In this document: positions 351 through 24,759 of the stretch, piece by piece
Position numbering within the stretch: the first letter of the stretch is position 1
How the letters are laid out: each line of letters starts with the position of its first letter
Source: a virus
IMG/VR virus record: IMGVR_UViG_3300034012_002567
Coordinates: 1 to 25,910 of that record
Length of the DNA: 25,910 bases
Direction: 5' to 3' (one strand)
Made by a program: the position numbers and the translations under genes
The notes under the pieces: model-generated
What the model was told of the DNA's origin: nothing
Seen by the model: only the letters and a program-made list of their open reading frames with translations
The model's database searches: none

Positions 351-502
351 AATTTGGTTGGGATGACATGGGTGGCTTGGAGCCGGTGTTTGAGAAAAAA
401 CTGGGTTTTTGCATCGCCGAATCCGGCGGCATGGATGAGGTCGCGAATGCGGCCAGTGAGCGGGCAGTAGCCCTCGCAAAGAAAAAGGCGTGGGGATTTC
501 AT
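347..502 (-). CDS. 51-aa hypothetical early protein
   Basis: Starts at the ATG at 502-500, overlapping the TGA of the excisionase-like gene as ATGA, and ends in a second ATGA overlap with the membrane peptide gene. The protein begins MKSPRLFLCEGYCPLTG and has two cysteines four residues apart (CEGYC), a helix (RIRDLIHAAGF) and a basic tail. A longer in-frame version starting near 550 is possible but would overlap the upstream gene by about 50 bases. The family is unknown. Two cysteines alone are too few to call a zinc site. Confidence 0.6.
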   Translation of the reverse strand: MKSPRLFLCEGYCPLTGRIRDLIHAAGFGDAKTQFFLKHRLQATHVIPTKL

Positions 503-702
503 TTCGATGGCCTCCGGTTGGATGTCTCGCCGATGCGGGCAGACCACCATTGATTGAGCGACTCGGTAAAAATCCGCCAGCCACCGCGATTCCCCAGCGG
601 CTTGGTTGCCGAGAAGCTGCCCTTGTAGATGTGCATTTTGATCGTCCAAGGGCAGGCCCCGGTCAGCTCGCACGCCTCCCGAATGGTCATCGTGCCTTTC
701 AT
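499..702 (-). CDS. Excisionase-like / MerR-type helix-turn-helix protein
   Basis: A 67-aa DNA-binding protein. Residues about 5-60 match the HTH_17 (excisionase, MerR-like winged helix) pattern: an initial TIREACELTG helix, a recognition helix around PWTIKMHIYKG, a basic wing, a GGWRI strand and a closing SLNQWW helix. Family members bind att-site or operator DNA as small architectural proteins, often directing excision or repressing early genes. It lies 0.8 kb from the integrase gene and in the divergent leftward operon, which fits a Xis or control role. The first ATG (702) overlaps the stop of the RHH gene as ATGA. A second ATG at 690 (MTIREA) is also possible. Whether it is the true excisionase cannot be decided from sequence alone. 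Confidence 0.75.
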   Translation of the reverse strand: MKGTMTIREACELTGACPWTIKMHIYKGSFSATKPLGNRGGWRIFTESLNQWWSARIGETSNRRPSK

Positions 703-860
703 TTCCGCGCCCTCCGTTTGTTAGTGCGCTGAAACATTTCCCGAACCGCCTGCACGATCACCTTGCTTGGTGTGGTGCTTTCGGCGTCCGCCTTCGCTTG
801 GATTTGCTCCCAGAGTTCAGCCGGGAAGCACGCTCCTTGTTTTCTGCTCGTCGCTGTCAT
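699..860 (-). CDS. Ribbon-helix-helix-like small regulator, first gene of the leftward early operon
   Basis: A 53-aa basic protein beginning MTATSRKQG. The layout is that of an Arc/CopG-like ribbon-helix-helix dimer: a short beta strand (GACFP), helix A (AELWEQIQAKADAE), the STTPSKV turn that joins the two helices in this fold, and helix B (IVQAVREMFQR), followed by a very basic tail. I chose the ATG at 860 because upstream in-frame starts (872 ATG, 896 TTG) fall inside the GGTGCACC palindrome that would be its operator. The gene is divergent from the 125-aa protein across about 180 bp containing four GGTGCACC sites, so autoregulation is likely. It ends in an ATGA overlap with the excisionase-like gene. 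Confidence 0.7.
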   Translation of the reverse strand: MTATSRKQGACFPAELWEQIQAKADAESTTPSKVIVQAVREMFQRTNKRRARK

Positions 861-863
861 GCG

Positions 864-887
864 GTGCACCATTTTATTTTGGTGCAC
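864..887. promoter_or_regulatory. Operator candidate O1/O2: paired GTGCACC / GGTGCAC sites
   Basis: GTGCACC (864-870) and its inverted partner GGTGCAC (881-887) are separated by a 10-bp A/T-only spacer (871-880). Each half is part of a GGTGCACC-type palindrome, so this may be two binding sites one helical turn apart in addition to one large dyad. It begins four bases upstream of the ATG of the leftward RHH gene, so a bound protein would block its transcription or translation. Confidence 0.7.
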
Positions 888-939
888 TTTTATCAATAAA
901 AAAAGTCAATGGGGTGTTCTCCCCATACGAAGATTTCTA

Positions 940-945
940 TTGACA
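940..945 (+). promoter_or_regulatory. Possible -35 box (TTGACA) of the rightward promoter
   Basis: A perfect TTGACA stands 99 bases upstream of the rightward 125-aa gene and upstream of two GGTGCACC palindromes. I see no good TATAAT at 16-18 bp spacing, so this is only a partial promoter match. Confidence 0.3.
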
Positions 946-980
946 TCCGCATGGACACTAGGTTTGCGGGCGAAAATTTA

Positions 981-1000
981 TTTTTCGGTGCACCGAAAAA
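981..1000. promoter_or_regulatory. Operator candidate O3: perfect 20-bp palindrome centred on GGTGCACC
   Basis: Bases 981-1000 form a perfect 20-bp palindrome (TTTTTC-GGTGCACC-GAAAAA when bounded by its A/T flanks). The core is at 987-994. It lies between the TTGACA at 940 and the start codon at 1044, where a repressor would stop rightward transcription. Confidence 0.75.
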
Positions 1001-1012
1001 AAGCAGGATTGA

Positions 1013-1026
1013 AAAGGTGCACCTTT
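1013..1026. promoter_or_regulatory. Operator candidate O4: AAAGGTGCACCTTT palindrome
   Basis: A perfect 14-bp palindrome with core GGTGCACC at 1016-1023. Its centre is 29 bp from the centre of O3, close to three helical turns, so proteins bound at both would sit on the same DNA face. It lies 18 bp upstream of the ATG of the 125-aa gene. Confidence 0.7.
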
Positions 1027-1043
1027 GCGATTAGGTTCCGAAT

Positions 1044-1421
1044 ATGGGTAGAAATAAGAAGCCGGAGAGTGAAAAGGCAACGAAGCCAGGCGTGTCATTA
1101 GACCACGAATGCCGCATTATTTTGAGCAAGATTTTAGAGTGGGAGCTTTCCGTTCAAAACAACGATCTGACCGCCTCTCAAGCCATTCGCAAGTGCATGC
1201 GCATTGCATGGCAGAGCCACTACGAAAAAATTTTTTCCGAGTATGAAGCCAAACAAATTATGGATGGCGTGGCATTGCTAAACGAAGAATCTCCGCAAAA
1301 ATCTTCAAGCAAACCGTCCAAAGTCTCCACCAGTGTGAATGCCAAAGTCGTGAAAGGCTCAGAGAGTTCCGTTGGTGGGTTCTCCAAAGCTACGACGGAC
1401 CGCTCCCGGAAGACTGGATAG
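1044..1421 (+). CDS. 125-aa rightward protein of the control region, possible RHH-like regulator
   Basis: The only convincing plus-strand gene in the window. It starts at the ATG at 1044, right after the O4 palindrome. The N-terminus is basic and disordered (MGRNKKPESEKATKPG), followed by a strand and helices (SLDHECRIILSKILEWEL, then LTASQAIRKCMRIAWQSHYEKIF) arranged much like a ribbon-helix-helix regulator. The last 40 or so residues are Ser/Lys-rich and look disordered. Its divergent position opposite the RHH/Xis-like operon fits a repressor or switch protein, but I do not recognise a named family. The open -1 frame beneath its 3' end is described as a separate finding. Confidence 0.7.
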   Translation: MGRNKKPESEKATKPGVSLDHECRIILSKILEWELSVQNNDLTASQAIRKCMRIAWQSHYEKIFSEYEAKQIMDGVALLNEESPQKSSSKPSKVSTSVNAKVVKGSESSVGGFSKATTDRSRKTG

Positions 1422-1515: not shown

Positions 1516-2541
1516 TTAAACGGCCCACCAAGCCCGCCAATCTGCCCGCCGCGAAGGCACGGCGTAGACCCGCTTCACCATGGCCGTCGTCGAGTGTCCA
1601 AGCTGGTGAGCGGTCTTTCCAGCATCCTGTCCGCGCCCCAAATGGTAGGTTGCGTAAGAATGCCGCAGGGCGTTTTCTGGAAACTGCGACCACGGCACCT
1701 TGTCCGCCTCGTGCAGCCGCCTGATGAGCGCCTGACGCTCTTGATAAATGCGCAACGATGCCGGTGGCAAAATCAGCCCTTTCTTTTTATCGCCTGCAAA
1801 AAACGCCGCCCGCTTCGTGAGCGGCTCGGTGAAGTCCACGATACGCTCTGGCAGTCCGGTGCTCTGTTTTGAAACTTCCCGCCTCACCTCGATCTCTCCC
1901 CGTGCCGCGTCAATATCCTCCCACCGCATCCGCCGCACCTCGATAGACCGCAGGCCCGCAAATCCACCCAGCAGAAACCACGCCCGCAGCTCGTCGCTCA
2001 TCTCCTCGGCCAAGATCGTCACCATTTCCCCGGCTGTGACGAGCGACCGCTTCGCCTCCGCTTTCGGCGCTCGTATCCTCCGCAGCGGATTCCGATCCAG
2101 TAGCTCCATATCGACGCACCAAGCAAAGAACCCGCTCGCGTAGCGATGCCAGCCCGCCCGTGTCGTAGGTGAACCCTCGATGCCGTCAAACCACTTCCCC
2201 GCCTTGAGCGGCGTCACATTCGCCACCGGCCCATCGAACGCCTCCAGCAGCTTGCCGCAAACCCGCTCGACCTTCGACTTGTGCTCTTCCGAGGATTTGG
2301 ATTTGGTAGCAATGTAATCACGCACCGCCGACCGCATCGAAAGCCCTCCCTGATCCTTTTCCCGCAGTCCATCCGTTCCCGACTTCTGAAGAGTCTCCAA
2401 AAGCGCAGGCCCAGCCGCCCAAGCTTCCGCCTCCGTGGAGAAGAAGCGCCTGATCCTGTTGCCCGAAACAGCCGCCGGAATCTCCAGCTTCCAAGTGCCA
2501 GGACGAGACGCATTAGGAGAGACAAAATATCGAGCCTTCAT
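1516..2541 (-). CDS. int: Tyrosine recombinase / phage integrase
   Basis: A 341-aa site-specific recombinase that would join attP to a tRNA-Leu attB. From the ATG at 2541 it has an N-terminal arm-binding type region (1-65), a SAM-like core-binding domain (about 68-160) and a catalytic domain (about 165-341). Visible catalytic positions are Arg198 (GLRSIE), a possible Lys225, Arg293 (ALRHSYATY), His316 (QLGHS) and the nucleophile Tyr326 (RVYA). The usual first His of the HxxR box is Asn290. The frame stays open upstream to 2769, but that part translates the tRNA fragment (GFESRRRHW), so 2541 is the start. No Shine-Dalgarno sequence is present. Instead, three TGTTGCCC arm-like repeats abut the start codon, which suggests autoregulation. 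Confidence 0.95.
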   Translation of the reverse strand: MKARYFVSPNASRPGTWKLEIPAAVSGNRIRRFFSTEAEAWAAGPALLETLQKSGTDGLREKDQGGLSMRSAVRDYIATKSKSSEEHKSKVERVCGKLLEAFDGPVANVTPLKAGKWFDGIEGSPTTRAGWHRYASGFFAWCVDMELLDRNPLRRIRAPKAEAKRSLVTAGEMVTILAEEMSDELRAWFLLGGFAGLRSIEVRRMRWEDIDAARGEIEVRREVSKQSTGLPERIVDFTEPLTKRAAFFAGDKKKGLILPPASLRIYQERQALIRRLHEADKVPWSQFPENALRHSYATYHLGRGQDAGKTAHQLGHSTTAMVKRVYAVPSRRADWRAWWAV

Positions 2542-2680: not shown

Positions 2681-2733
2681 TGCCGGCGGCGGGACTCGAA
2701 CCCGCACACTCCTTTCGGAATAAGGGATTTTAA
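2681..2733 (-). other. attP: attP core: 3' part of a tRNA-Leu(UAA) gene
   Basis: Read on the minus strand, 2733 to 2681 gives the anticodon-loop bases TTAAAA, the 3' anticodon stem TCCCT, a long class II variable arm (TCC-GAAA-GGA), a perfect T-arm (GCGGG-TTCGAGT-CCCGC), the 3' acceptor strand CGCCGGC and discriminator A. This matches tRNA-Leu(UAA). The bases to the right (2734 onward) do not form a 5' half, so the gene is not functional. Tyrosine integrases commonly cross over in an anticodon loop and carry the rest of the tRNA as the core. Phage genes lie on both sides, so I call attP rather than a prophage end. Confidence 0.8.
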
Positions 2734-21916: not shown

Positions 21917-22423
21917 TTATTGCGGTGTCAAATTTTTGGCCGCGATTTCGAGCGCCTTGCGGTTTGCGCGGAAGATGCGGGTCTTCTCGGCGCCGGTGGC
22001 GTTCTTCCACTGGTCGTAGATGTTTTCCGCGTTCTGCGTGGTAAGGACTTCGGGAATTTCGCGGGCGGCTGAGAGGCCGAGGCTGCGCTCCAGGCGAGCG
22101 AGGGATTCGCGCTCGGCGGCGATTTCGCTGCGGAGGAATTCGATATTCGCGCTGGCTTCTTTGAGTCCGGCCACGGCTGCGTCGCGCTCTGCGATGACGG
22201 CGTTGTATTTGGCGAGGATGCTGTCAGCGGCGGCGAGCTTGGCTTGAGGCTCGGCGGGAGCTTCGACAACTTCGGGTGCGGGAGCTTCGACAGCTTCAGG
22301 TGCTGGTGTCTCGGCGACAACTTCAGGAGCGGGTTCGATGGCGGGTTGCTCGGCAGGAGCGGATTCGCTCACGACGGTGGCGGCGACTTCTGGCTCGATG
22401 GCGGGTTGGTTTTCGTTTTCCAT
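21917..22423 (-). CDS. Internal-start scaffold protein nested in the protease gene, 168 aa
   Basis: Within the protease frame, an ATG at 22423 (MENENQPAIEPEVA, residue 206 of the long form) is preceded by AAAAGGAAAACCT. This is one of the few good Shine-Dalgarno-like sequences in the window, with a 6-7 base spacing. The product would be just the linker and coiled coil, as in the lambda C/Nu3 arrangement where a scaffold starts inside the protease gene in the same frame. TTTGACAC stands 19 bases upstream of this ATG, as at other gene junctions. Abundance of the short form cannot be judged from DNA. Confidence 0.65.
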   Translation of the reverse strand: MENENQPAIEPEVAATVVSESAPAEQPAIEPAPEVVAETPAPEAVEAPAPEVVEAPAEPQAKLAAADSILAKYNAVIAERDAAVAGLKEASANIEFLRSEIAAERESLARLERSLGLSAAREIPEVLTTQNAENIYDQWKNATGAEKTRIFRANRKALEIAAKNLTPQ

Positions 22424-23038
22424 AGGTTTTCCTTTTGCAAAGGTGTCAAAACGAGCGCGCAACTGGTCAGGCGTGACGCTGGCAGCGGCGGCGACGCCTT
22501 CCTCGATGGCGTCGGCAAATCCGAGGGCCACGGCTTCGACGGCATCGAGCCAAGTCTCGGCGTCCATCATTGCGCCGATTTCTTCAGCGTTGATGCCGGT
22601 CTTGCGGACATAGGCGTTGCGGAGATTGACTTTGAGTTTGTCGAGAAGGTCGGCTTCTTTGCGTAGGTCTTTGCTCTCGCCCATGCTCACCGTCCACGGG
22701 TTGTGGATCATCAGGAGGGCATTGTCGGCCATGTAAACGGGAGCGCCTGCCATTGCGATGACGCTGGCCATCGATGCGGCCATAGCGTCGATGTGGACAG
22801 TCAGACCGCCTTCGTGTCGACGGAGGGCGTTGTAAATGGCCGTGCCTTCGATGACGCTGCCGCCCGGAGAATTGATGCGGAGGTGGATGTGTTGGCCTGC
22901 GAGCTTGCCGAGGTCAGCGAGGAACTCTTTCGAGCCTGCGCCAAAAGCACCGATCTCGTCGTAGAGAGTGACCGTGGTTTCGTTGTCAGCGGTTTTTTCC
23001 AGAGCATAAAATTTCGGGGTGGATGTGGGTGTGGTCAT
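21917..23038 (-). CDS. Head maturation protease (ClpP-like, S14) with C-terminal scaffold domain, 373 aa
   Basis: Residues 1-190 are a ClpP-type serine protease of the phage S14 family: RINSPGGSVIEG (54-65), the nucleophile Ser89 in DAMAASMASVIAMAG, His112 in LLMIHNPW, and the acidic end ETWLDAVEAVALGFADAI. It would cut the scaffold, and possibly the capsid and portal, during head maturation. Residues 206-373 are a linker of repeated Pro/Glu/Ala and Val (EAPAPEVVEAPAEPQ) and a long coiled coil (VIAERDAAVAGLKEASANIEFLRSEIAAERES), typical of a scaffold. The start overlaps the portal stop as ATGA. An internal start (see next entry) could make the scaffold separately. Confidence 0.9.
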   Translation of the reverse strand: MTTPTSTPKFYALEKTADNETTVTLYDEIGAFGAGSKEFLADLGKLAGQHIHLRINSPGGSVIEGTAIYNALRRHEGGLTVHIDAMAASMASVIAMAGAPVYMADNALLMIHNPWTVSMGESKDLRKEADLLDKLKVNLRNAYVRKTGINAEEIGAMMDAETWLDAVEAVALGFADAIEEGVAAAASVTPDQLRARFDTFAKGKPMENENQPAIEPEVAATVVSESAPAEQPAIEPAPEVVAETPAPEAVEAPAPEVVEAPAEPQAKLAAADSILAKYNAVIAERDAAVAGLKEASANIEFLRSEIAAERESLARLERSLGLSAAREIPEVLTTQNAENIYDQWKNATGAEKTRIFRANRKALEIAAKNLTPQ

Positions 23039-24759
23039 GGTTCGGTTGGGTTGTCTTCGGGAGTGGGGTTAGTGGTGGCATCTGCGCCCGCGAGTTCACT
23101 GCTCAGAGTGATCGGCGAGCGGATTGGGTTTTGTTGCCATTCGGACAAGACATCCGATCCCATTTCGGGCAGCGCCAAGGATTGGCGGACGGACTGCTCG
23201 AGCGCTTGCTCTGGAGTCAAAACGCCAGCGCGGACAGCAACGCCGATGGCGTCGAGTTTTTCCTTGGCTTGAAGATCGGAAATGGCGGGAGATTGATTAG
23301 AGTCGTCGTCATCCGGCTCGGCGGGTTGTTGCGCGGCGATGCCGTTGCGGAGGGCGTTGGGGAAGACTTCGGAAATGTTCAGGCCGAGCGCGTCGCACTT
23401 GGCTTTGCGGCGGAGGAAGGTGTCGATCACATCGTCCTCTTCCTCTGTGGCGCGGAGGCCGAGCATGTTGAAATATCGGGTCGGCGAGAGGTGGCCCTTG
23501 TCGAGTTGTTCGCTGTAGGCGCGGGCGTCGCGGCCGCTGTCCACGGTGATCTTGCGCGGTGCGAGCCATTCGTGCCTCCACCAGTCATCGCCGGGGTATT
23601 CCAAGCGACCAGCCTGCATTTCATGCCAGAGCCAATATTTGTAAAACGGCCGGCAGAACTGATCGATGACCTGCTGTTGCAGGCGCTCGAGGAAATTCTG
23701 AGTGACCTCGAGGACGGCGCGCTGCTCAGTGCCAGCGAGGCCGACATTGACCATCATGGCTTCGGGTGGGAGGCCGATGGCGAAGGCGACATCGCTGCGG
23801 AGGGCGCGCATCACGGCTTCGTAGGTCTGGCCTGGGATGTCGTTCTTAAAGGCTTCGAGTTTTTCGCCTGGTTTAAGGCGAGGGAGAAGGATGCCGTTTG
23901 GTAGGTCGGTGGTCTGGAGGTCGCCGACTTCGTTGGTGGTGGATTTGAGTCCGGCACCGAGGCCGATCTTGGCGACTTCCGTTGATGTCACCATGTAGCC
24001 GATTTGCGCACCTGCTTTGTATGCGCCTTTGACGAAGCCATTTATTTCGGAGATGTCGCGGAGGTTGGAGACTGCGGAGTGGAGCCACGAGACGCCGCGC
24101 GGCTGGCCGTGCCTGCGGATGTGCCGCATGTGCAGCACTTGGTCGGCAGAGATTTCTTTTCCGCCAATCGTGTAGGCTGCGGGCGCTCCGAATTGATCGA
24201 GGCGCACGCCGTCGTGCGTCATGTCATCCGGGTTGCCGAAGCTGGCAGAGCCGCCGATGGCTTCGCCGCCGATGAAGCGGACGCGGGCGGCACCTTCTCT
24301 GGTCTTGAGGAACTGAGCGAAAAAGTCGCCGTCGATGGCGACTTGGCGAAGGATGAGAGATTGCGCGGTGTAGAAATTCACCTGTGCCGATGCGTCGAAT
24401 GCCCATGCCTCTGCGCAGACGCGATCCTCGAAATACTGATCAACTTTCTTGTTCCAAGCGGTGTTCGATGTTTTCGGCTGAACCACGATGCCGGTTCCGA
24501 CGGCGCGCTGTGCCAGATGCTCGACGAGGTAGGTGGCCTGCGGCGCGTTGTTGTAGAGCCAGCGCGCGAGGCGCAGGATTTCCATCCGCGTGTAAGCCGT
24601 TAACTCCCTCTTTGGGTCTGTGGTCGGCACCCATACGAGGCCGCGATTCAGCGAAGGTTGCGCGGCTTCAAATGCCGCTGCTTTTGCGTCGAGCTTGCGC
24701 GGGCGACCTGCTCCGGGGCGAGTTCCTCCCCAACTTGATTTTTTTGATTTTGACGGCAC
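23035..24759 (-). CDS. Portal protein, lambda family, 574 aa
   Basis: The dodecameric DNA gate of the head. It matches the phage lambda portal family (PF05136): LARWLYNNAPQATYLVEHL near the start, AIDGDFFAQFL, ADQVLHMRHIRRHGQPRGVSWLHSAV (split over 212-237), the stem helices GQTYEAVMRALRSDVAFAIGLPPEAM and the clip/crown region to the C-terminus. The N-terminal SSWGGTRPGAGRPRK is a basic AT-hook-like motif seen in small terminase-type proteins and unusual here, perhaps a DNA contact or a fused piece. The start is GTG at 24759, 12 bases after TTTGACAC. The end overlaps the protease gene as ATGA. Confidence 0.93.
   Translation of the reverse strand: MPSKSKKSSWGGTRPGAGRPRKLDAKAAAFEAAQPSLNRGLVWVPTTDPKRELTAYTRMEILRLARWLYNNAPQATYLVEHLAQRAVGTGIVVQPKTSNTAWNKKVDQYFEDRVCAEAWAFDASAQVNFYTAQSLILRQVAIDGDFFAQFLKTREGAARVRFIGGEAIGGSASFGNPDDMTHDGVRLDQFGAPAAYTIGGKEISADQVLHMRHIRRHGQPRGVSWLHSAVSNLRDISEINGFVKGAYKAGAQIGYMVTSTEVAKIGLGAGLKSTTNEVGDLQTTDLPNGILLPRLKPGEKLEAFKNDIPGQTYEAVMRALRSDVAFAIGLPPEAMMVNVGLAGTEQRAVLEVTQNFLERLQQQVIDQFCRPFYKYWLWHEMQAGRLEYPGDDWWRHEWLAPRKITVDSGRDARAYSEQLDKGHLSPTRYFNMLGLRATEEEDDVIDTFLRRKAKCDALGLNISEVFPNALRNGIAAQQPAEPDDDDSNQSPAISDLQAKEKLDAIGVAVRAGVLTPEQALEQSVRQSLALPEMGSDVLSEWQQNPIRSPITLSSELAGADATTNPTPEDNPTEP

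Follow-up and report, generated by a model that had tools for sequence, protein, structure and literature searches.

Can a lysogeny switch be built without a CI/Cro pair, from two small proteins of the ribbon-helix-helix (RHH) type? Dissected phage immunity regions mostly use HTH repressors. The question is raised by a divergent regulatory region in a 25,910-nucleotide stretch of viral DNA (IMG/VR record IMGVR_UViG_3300034012_002567, positions 1 to 25,910; hereafter the window, meaning this whole stretch). An earlier note, made from the sequence alone, had picked out four operator-like sites between an RHH-like protein gene and a gene for a 125-aa, possibly RHH-like protein facing the other way, and had proposed such a switch. 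Here, we examine these two genes, A and B, the gap that separates them and the corresponding loci of related phages. We consider it likely, from sequence comparison, that A and B are RHH repressors acting on shared GGTGCACC operators in a lysogeny switch, and that the types of locus found among relatives are matched sets of proteins and operators. A broader reading, to which we give about an even chance, is that two homologous RHH repressors make the primary lysis-lysogeny decision throughout the clade, with at least five heteroimmune specificities produced by swapping the pair and its operators into a fixed frame.

Four operator sites in a divergent gap

The features of the region are as follows, in window coordinates.

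499–702, minus strand: HTH_17 (excisionase/MerR-like) gene, overlapping the end of gene A (Pfam HTH_17, E 9e-7; phrog_66 excisionase, E 1.4e-4)
699–860, minus strand: gene A, a 53-aa RHH protein with its ATG at 860, first in the leftward (early) operon; candidate Cro-like lytic repressor
863–870, no strand: operator site 1, GGTGCACC, its nearer edge 2 bp upstream from the gene A start codon
881–888, no strand: operator site 2, GGTGCACT, 18 bp from site 1
940–967, no strand: core element TTGACATCCGCATGGACACTAGGTTTGC, 28 bp, between the operator pairs and common to all five operator types
981–1000, no strand: operator site 3, GGTGCACC at 987–994, within the 20-bp perfect palindrome TTTTTCGGTGCACCGAAAAA
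1013–1026, no strand: operator site 4, GGTGCACC at 1016–1023, within the 14-bp perfect palindrome AAAGGTGCACCTTT
1009–1037, plus strand: candidate gene B promoter, TTGAAA (1009–1014), 17-bp spacer, TAGGTT (1032–1037), found by eye from the alignment
1044–1421, plus strand: gene B, a 125-aa RHH-like protein with a disordered tail; candidate lysogenic repressor
1284–1421, plus strand: C-terminal tail of gene B, residues ~81–125, predicted disordered, with DNA-level matches in types II and III
1516–2541, minus strand: tyrosine integrase (PF00589, E 5e-9; PHROG integrase, E 3e-31), open frame to 2769
2681–2707, minus strand: attP candidate GTGCGGGTTCGAGTCCCGCCGCCGGCA, 27 bp, the 3′ end of a tRNA-Leu(TAA), upstream of the integrase

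A pattern scan of the window returned exact GGTGCACC at sites 1, 3 and 4, and site 2 contains GGTGCAC at 881–887. The four sites claimed earlier, one of them a base shorter than the rest, are therefore where they were said to be, and the long perfect palindromes around two of them are equally real. Within the pairs, the sites lie 18 bp (sites 1 and 2) and 29 bp (sites 3 and 4) apart, and gene B starts 20 bp past the end of site 4. The 18-bp spacing holds in all type I loci, the type to which the window belongs, and the start-to-start distance of the first two sites, as read from the gap sequences, is also 18 bp in types II and III.

Outside the four-site region, the 25,910-base record holds no further exact copy of GGTGCACC, which excludes the equal density elsewhere that the earlier note had named as refuting its reading. 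The 183-bp gap contains four copies of GTGCAC, where 0.014 would be expected, and the remaining 25.7 kb contain two (P ~2e-9). When one mismatch is allowed, GGTGCACC is counted 9 times across the whole window against 11.3 expected, so the operator signal lies in clustering and exactness rather than in abundance. Exact GGTGCACC was found at most twice in each type I record among 13 longer related records, and never in those of other types. In nearly all types, these phages contain fewer palindromic hexamers (GTGCAC, CTGCAG, GTCGAC, GAGCTC) than expected, which suggests restriction avoidance. Because this avoidance of palindromes is general across the types, the rarity of GTGCAC outside the switch is not evidence of operator function, and decoy avoidance was rejected as its cause, types II–V and other palindromic hexamers being depleted too. 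The same avoidance makes the retention of four GTGCAC within 183 bp more striking.

Conservation singles out the same positions. Among the gaps of 15 distinct type I relatives, 23 of the 24 GTGCAC columns are invariant; for the remaining non-core columns the figure is 56 of 136. In the 15 distinct type I relatives, GTGCAC is invariant at site 1, as are all eight bases of GGTGCACC at site 4; site 3 retains GTGCAC in relatives with the sole exception of ATGCAC in the relative L048.

Other elements occupy the space between the sites. Few stretches of the region are conserved as well as the core (940–973, TTGACATCCGCATG...TTTGCGGG), which in the window holds CCGCA-N13-TGCGG; it could serve as a promoter or be bound by another regulator. 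An inverted repeat, ATGGGGAGAACACCCCAT (909–926), lies between site 2 and the core in many relatives, not in all, and it was scored as terminator-like on the minus strand in the same scan that was used for promoters. By consensus, that scan found no sigma-70 promoter in 700–1520, and the gene B promoter is a tentative one, placed by eye; site 4 falls inside the spacer of the candidate TTGAAA-17-TAGGTT promoter.

Folds of the two proteins

The gene A protein matches the PHROG profile phrog_6506, ‘Arc-like repressor’ (E 3.6e-5), and a profile built from A proteins matches CdbA in the PDB (E 2.9e-4), which is an RHH protein according to the available text of PMC7156744. The AlphaFold model of A (pLDDT 83) has helices at residues 14–26 and 31–52, preceded by an N-terminal strand that is extended and unpaired in the monomer. 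Its best Foldseek matches are RHH chains (probability 0.97–0.99), VIA-align gives Z scores of 5–5.7 to RHH chains, and the structures that it resembles in these comparisons are Arc, PutA and CopG together with the antitoxin RHH domains of Rv0298, MazE and TacA. By profile and by model, gene A thus has the short N-terminal strand and two helices of the RHH (MetJ/Arc) superfamily, and its first description as RHH-like is borne out.

Gene B required a more indirect assignment. The model of the type I protein shows a putative strand at about residues 14–19 in an extended N-terminus, helices at 21–38 and 44–80, and the disordered tail. Similarity of type I B to A is weak (hhalign E 0.015, probability 3%). 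Foldseek returned no confident match for the model; VIA-align, applied to Foldseek's own matches, gave a low Z of 2.9 to NikR over 40 residues; Pfam and PDB profiles gave no match to type I B; and the B profile matches MetJ weakly. In types II–V, the B proteins at the equivalent position show clear RHH homology to A (hhalign probability 98%, E 1.6e-13). We therefore term type I B ‘RHH-like’, since its own similarity is weak but the B of other types is clearly RHH. The length and divergent orientation first given for this 125-aa protein stand, while for type I B the suggested fold is matched weakly. The tail of B is an exchangeable module common to operator types, with up to 98% DNA identity; type I shares tails with types II and III, with type IV and with type V.

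Five linked sets of proteins and operators

Relatives of A were found on 22 contigs, which have a B gene and a gap with the four sites. Relatives reached through the tail of B encode different RHH proteins and have no GTGCAC, with the same central core. A scan with the core TTGACANCCGCATGNNNACNANNNTTGC identified 54 contigs of viral origin and one from a Verrucomicrobia MAG, and a relaxed core pattern recovered the same 54 contigs with none added. A scan of 384 genomes from the class of this host MAG gave nothing beyond the MAG itself, and for neither A nor B of type I or II were relatives found in 50,697 phage records.

These loci fall into five operator types: GGTGCACC in type I, GGTGCTACC in type II, TACTACC..GGTAGC in type III, TTGCCAA/TTGGCAA in type IV and GGTnnTACC in type V, with a GGT..ACC theme common to types I, II and V. 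Both genes are present in 53 of 56 loci, window included, divided among types I–V as 19, 23, 5, 4 and 2 (types III, IV and V being represented by 5, 4 and 2 contigs). The type of A, the type of B and the type of operator are fully linked, with no mixtures in the 53 loci; because the loci are related to each other, these counts are not independent events. Across the types, A is RHH and B is RHH or RHH-like, and no type I B was found outside the type I contigs. The A side and the B side share a type-specific operator-like string in types I, II, IV and V (reached by 0–1 of 300 shuffles); for type III, the string shared by the two sides was not significant in the shuffle test.

Residues on the predicted recognition strands follow the same division. 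Alternating polar and buried residues can be read from the alignments on the predicted strands of both proteins, and in the Arc register the exposed residues are K7-G9-C11 in A (register from VIA-align) and K14-G16-S18 in B (aligned by hand). The central recognition position is Gly in type I only, in both A and B, and Ser or Asn in the other types. As type I alone has the central Gly, and has it in both proteins, this correlation, which covers one evolutionary type, suggests a common operator for the two.

Apparent exchange of specificity within a constant frame

The frame into which these sets are placed is conserved. The gene A start codon lies 78–81 nt from the core in all five types, and several types have in common the core, the C-terminal tail of B, the gene after A, the integrase and the tRNA-Leu attP. 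Gene families behind A also cross types, one being found in types I and II, a second in types I, II and III, and a third in types I, II and V; the family of the gene after A varies independently of operator type. The window aligns with the type III relative L036 at 19–722, 940–985 (98%) and 1290–1893 (94%) and not in between, so the replaced segments are both operator pairs, the N-terminal portion of A and the RHH portion of B; the core, the B tail and the integrase side have been retained. Judged by co-variation, repressor and operator specificity appear to have been exchanged together between related phages. With constant flanks and swapped operators and RHH parts, these are the marks that an exchange of immunity type is expected to leave, and we infer that the five types are heteroimmune specificity cassettes, that is, putative immunity groups.

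Genomic setting

The gene after A encodes an HTH_17 protein in the window and in L048, and a small protein that is HTH_17-like by sequence in nearly all other loci. In L048, the operon behind A continues from HTH_17 to RecT, a PD-(D/E)XK exonuclease-like protein and DnaB; gene A leads an early recombination/replication operon.

On the other side, the listed frame of the integrase (to 2769) runs through the attP candidate, and its true start is therefore probably the ATG at 2541. The attP candidate is the same or nearly so in type I and II relatives and in one type III relative. Of the 26 genomes in the host MAG's family, 17 have a single copy of this sequence, lying in a tRNA-Leu in all four examples examined, and this tRNA-Leu copy is likely to be attB. 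Two other identifications were discarded: a weak match of the attP region to tmRNA is explained by the shared T-arm, and the conserved C-terminal tail of gene B was rejected as attP, the tRNA 3′ end upstream of the integrase fitting better. As in a temperate immunity region, the divergent regulatory genes adjoin the integrase and att site, and one of them leads the early operon.

Farther along, the window encodes a portal protein, a tape measure protein and a peptidoglycan peptidase. A ClpP-like protease (21917–23038; PF00574, E 2e-32) adjoins the lambda-family portal protein (23035–24759) and is probably the prohead protease. The window appears to represent a temperate tailed phage whose host, on the basis of one binned contig and the attB match, is probably a member of the Verrucomicrobia/Verrucomicrobiota.

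In 12 related records, some perhaps incomplete, we found neither an S24 peptidase nor an HTH_3 match over the cut-off; sub-threshold HTH_3 matches of 21–26 positions occur in longer open frames of 7 of the 12. At least two relatives (L083:1153–1740 and L084:1336–1866, minus strand) encode a 176–195-aa protein with an isolated HTH-like stretch (AEVARELGVTRALLSHY/ALVSHY), so another regulator is possible.

Model of the switch and alternatives

Taken together, the linked A, B and operator types, the early operon led by A, the integrase with its attP candidate, and the lack of S24 or full HTH_3 matches in the 12 records support a lysogeny switch without a CI/Cro pair, as the earlier note had proposed. 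In such a switch, both proteins would most likely act as dimers on a common set of GGTGCACC palindromes, two of them set against the start of gene A and two upstream of gene B. Each protein would repress the other's gene, its own or both, resulting in two exclusive states. Occupancy of the sites could block both genes, as site 1 adjoins the start of A and site 4 lies 20 bp before B. Gene B, transcribed toward the integrase end, would most likely encode the lysogenic repressor, and gene A, first in the early operon, would take the position of Cro. Binding by both proteins, their site preferences, the places of the promoters and the direction of the switch are what we infer from sequence.

The roles could be divided differently if A were the only operator-binding RHH repressor, autoregulating the early operon and repressing B, with B co-inherited and either not binding DNA or binding elsewhere. 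The RHH fold is far better supported for A than for type I B, but the B of types II–V are clearly homologous to A as RHH proteins, the operators and the RHH part of B have been replaced together whereas the B tail has not, and all type I B are confined to the type I contig set; we judge this arrangement unlikely. The nearest precedent is immI of P22, a secondary immunity region where the RHH repressors Arc, used in the lytic state, and Mnt, used in the lysogenic one, control the antirepressor gene ant beside the immC/c2 region (PMC7549136, PMC2629481). By analogy, the present pair might provide a secondary immunity that controls an antirepressor or accessory function, with a separate repressor maintaining lysogeny, and the relatives do carry the protein with the isolated HTH-like stretch. 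However, in P22-like phages the ant region forms a moron within the late operon (PMC2629481), whereas A leads a recombination/replication operon by the integrase and attP; no antirepressor adjoins A, the next gene being HTH_17 or HTH_17-like; and the 12 related records, with the reservation that some may be incomplete, have no S24 peptidase or over-threshold HTH_3. We regard a role of this kind as rather improbable.

The likeness of the A model to CopG and to the antitoxin RHH domains of Rv0298, MazE and TacA could also point to a plasmid-style RHH system, acting in partition, in copy control or as the antitoxin of a toxin-antitoxin pair. The neighbours argue otherwise, as no toxin or ParA-like gene adjoins A or B and the surrounding genes are HTH_17, integrase, RecT, exonuclease and DnaB, and the operators are common to two divergent RHH genes, which leaves a plasmid-style function very improbable. 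Finally, the sites might be thought a chance or restriction-related cluster, GTGCAC being palindromic and hexamers of that kind being rarer than expected in these phages. This is hardly conceivable, as other phages of the group hold different operators at the same places, a co-variation that refutes it, and the site columns are nearly invariant.

Comparison with known systems

In the lambda CI/Cro and P2 C/Cox switches, a divergent repressor and an early-gene repressor are arranged around shared operators beside the integrase, and heteroimmune variants of the lambda and P2 type swap their repressors together with the operators. Those switches use HTH proteins. The present locus has the same layout, but its specificity proteins are RHH or RHH-like; if our reading is true, the same two-repressor logic can arise from a different fold, in paralogous RHH proteins. 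RHH dimers read short palindromes by a two-stranded sheet, and MetJ reads 8-bp met boxes; unlike abutting boxes, the sites here are 18 and 29 bp apart. MetJ, CopG and PutA are RHH repressors of known structure and are not phage immunity proteins.

A small RHH protein with repeated short operators controls lysogeny in the archaeal fusellovirus SSV1. According to the available text of PMC9608457, the 55-aa RHH protein F55 keeps lysogeny through the operators ATAGATAGAGT, which lie in several SSV1 promoters, that of F55 itself included. F55 differs from the pair described here in being a single RHH repressor of an archaeal virus, and no divergent RHH partner or swapped types are described in that text.

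The five matched sets in one frame resemble interchangeable locks and keys. They constitute a natural data set for the RHH recognition code, with Gly set against Ser or Asn at the central position, and, if the proposed switch is true, superinfection immunity groups could be predicted from sequence in uncultured phages.

A literature search that took in few subscription journals found, among the titles and passages covered, no primary phage switch built from an RHH pair. An RHH pair is already known from a secondary switch, P22 immI, and what is new here is an apparent primary switch with five matched sets. The two systems would be alike in having two small RHH or RHH-like proteins in one immunity region, with repression here proposed from sequence, and the gene A model matches Arc itself in VIA-align. 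They differ in that the present pair leads the early operon beside the integrase and attP with no ant gene adjoining, and in that at least five operator specificities occupy a single frame.
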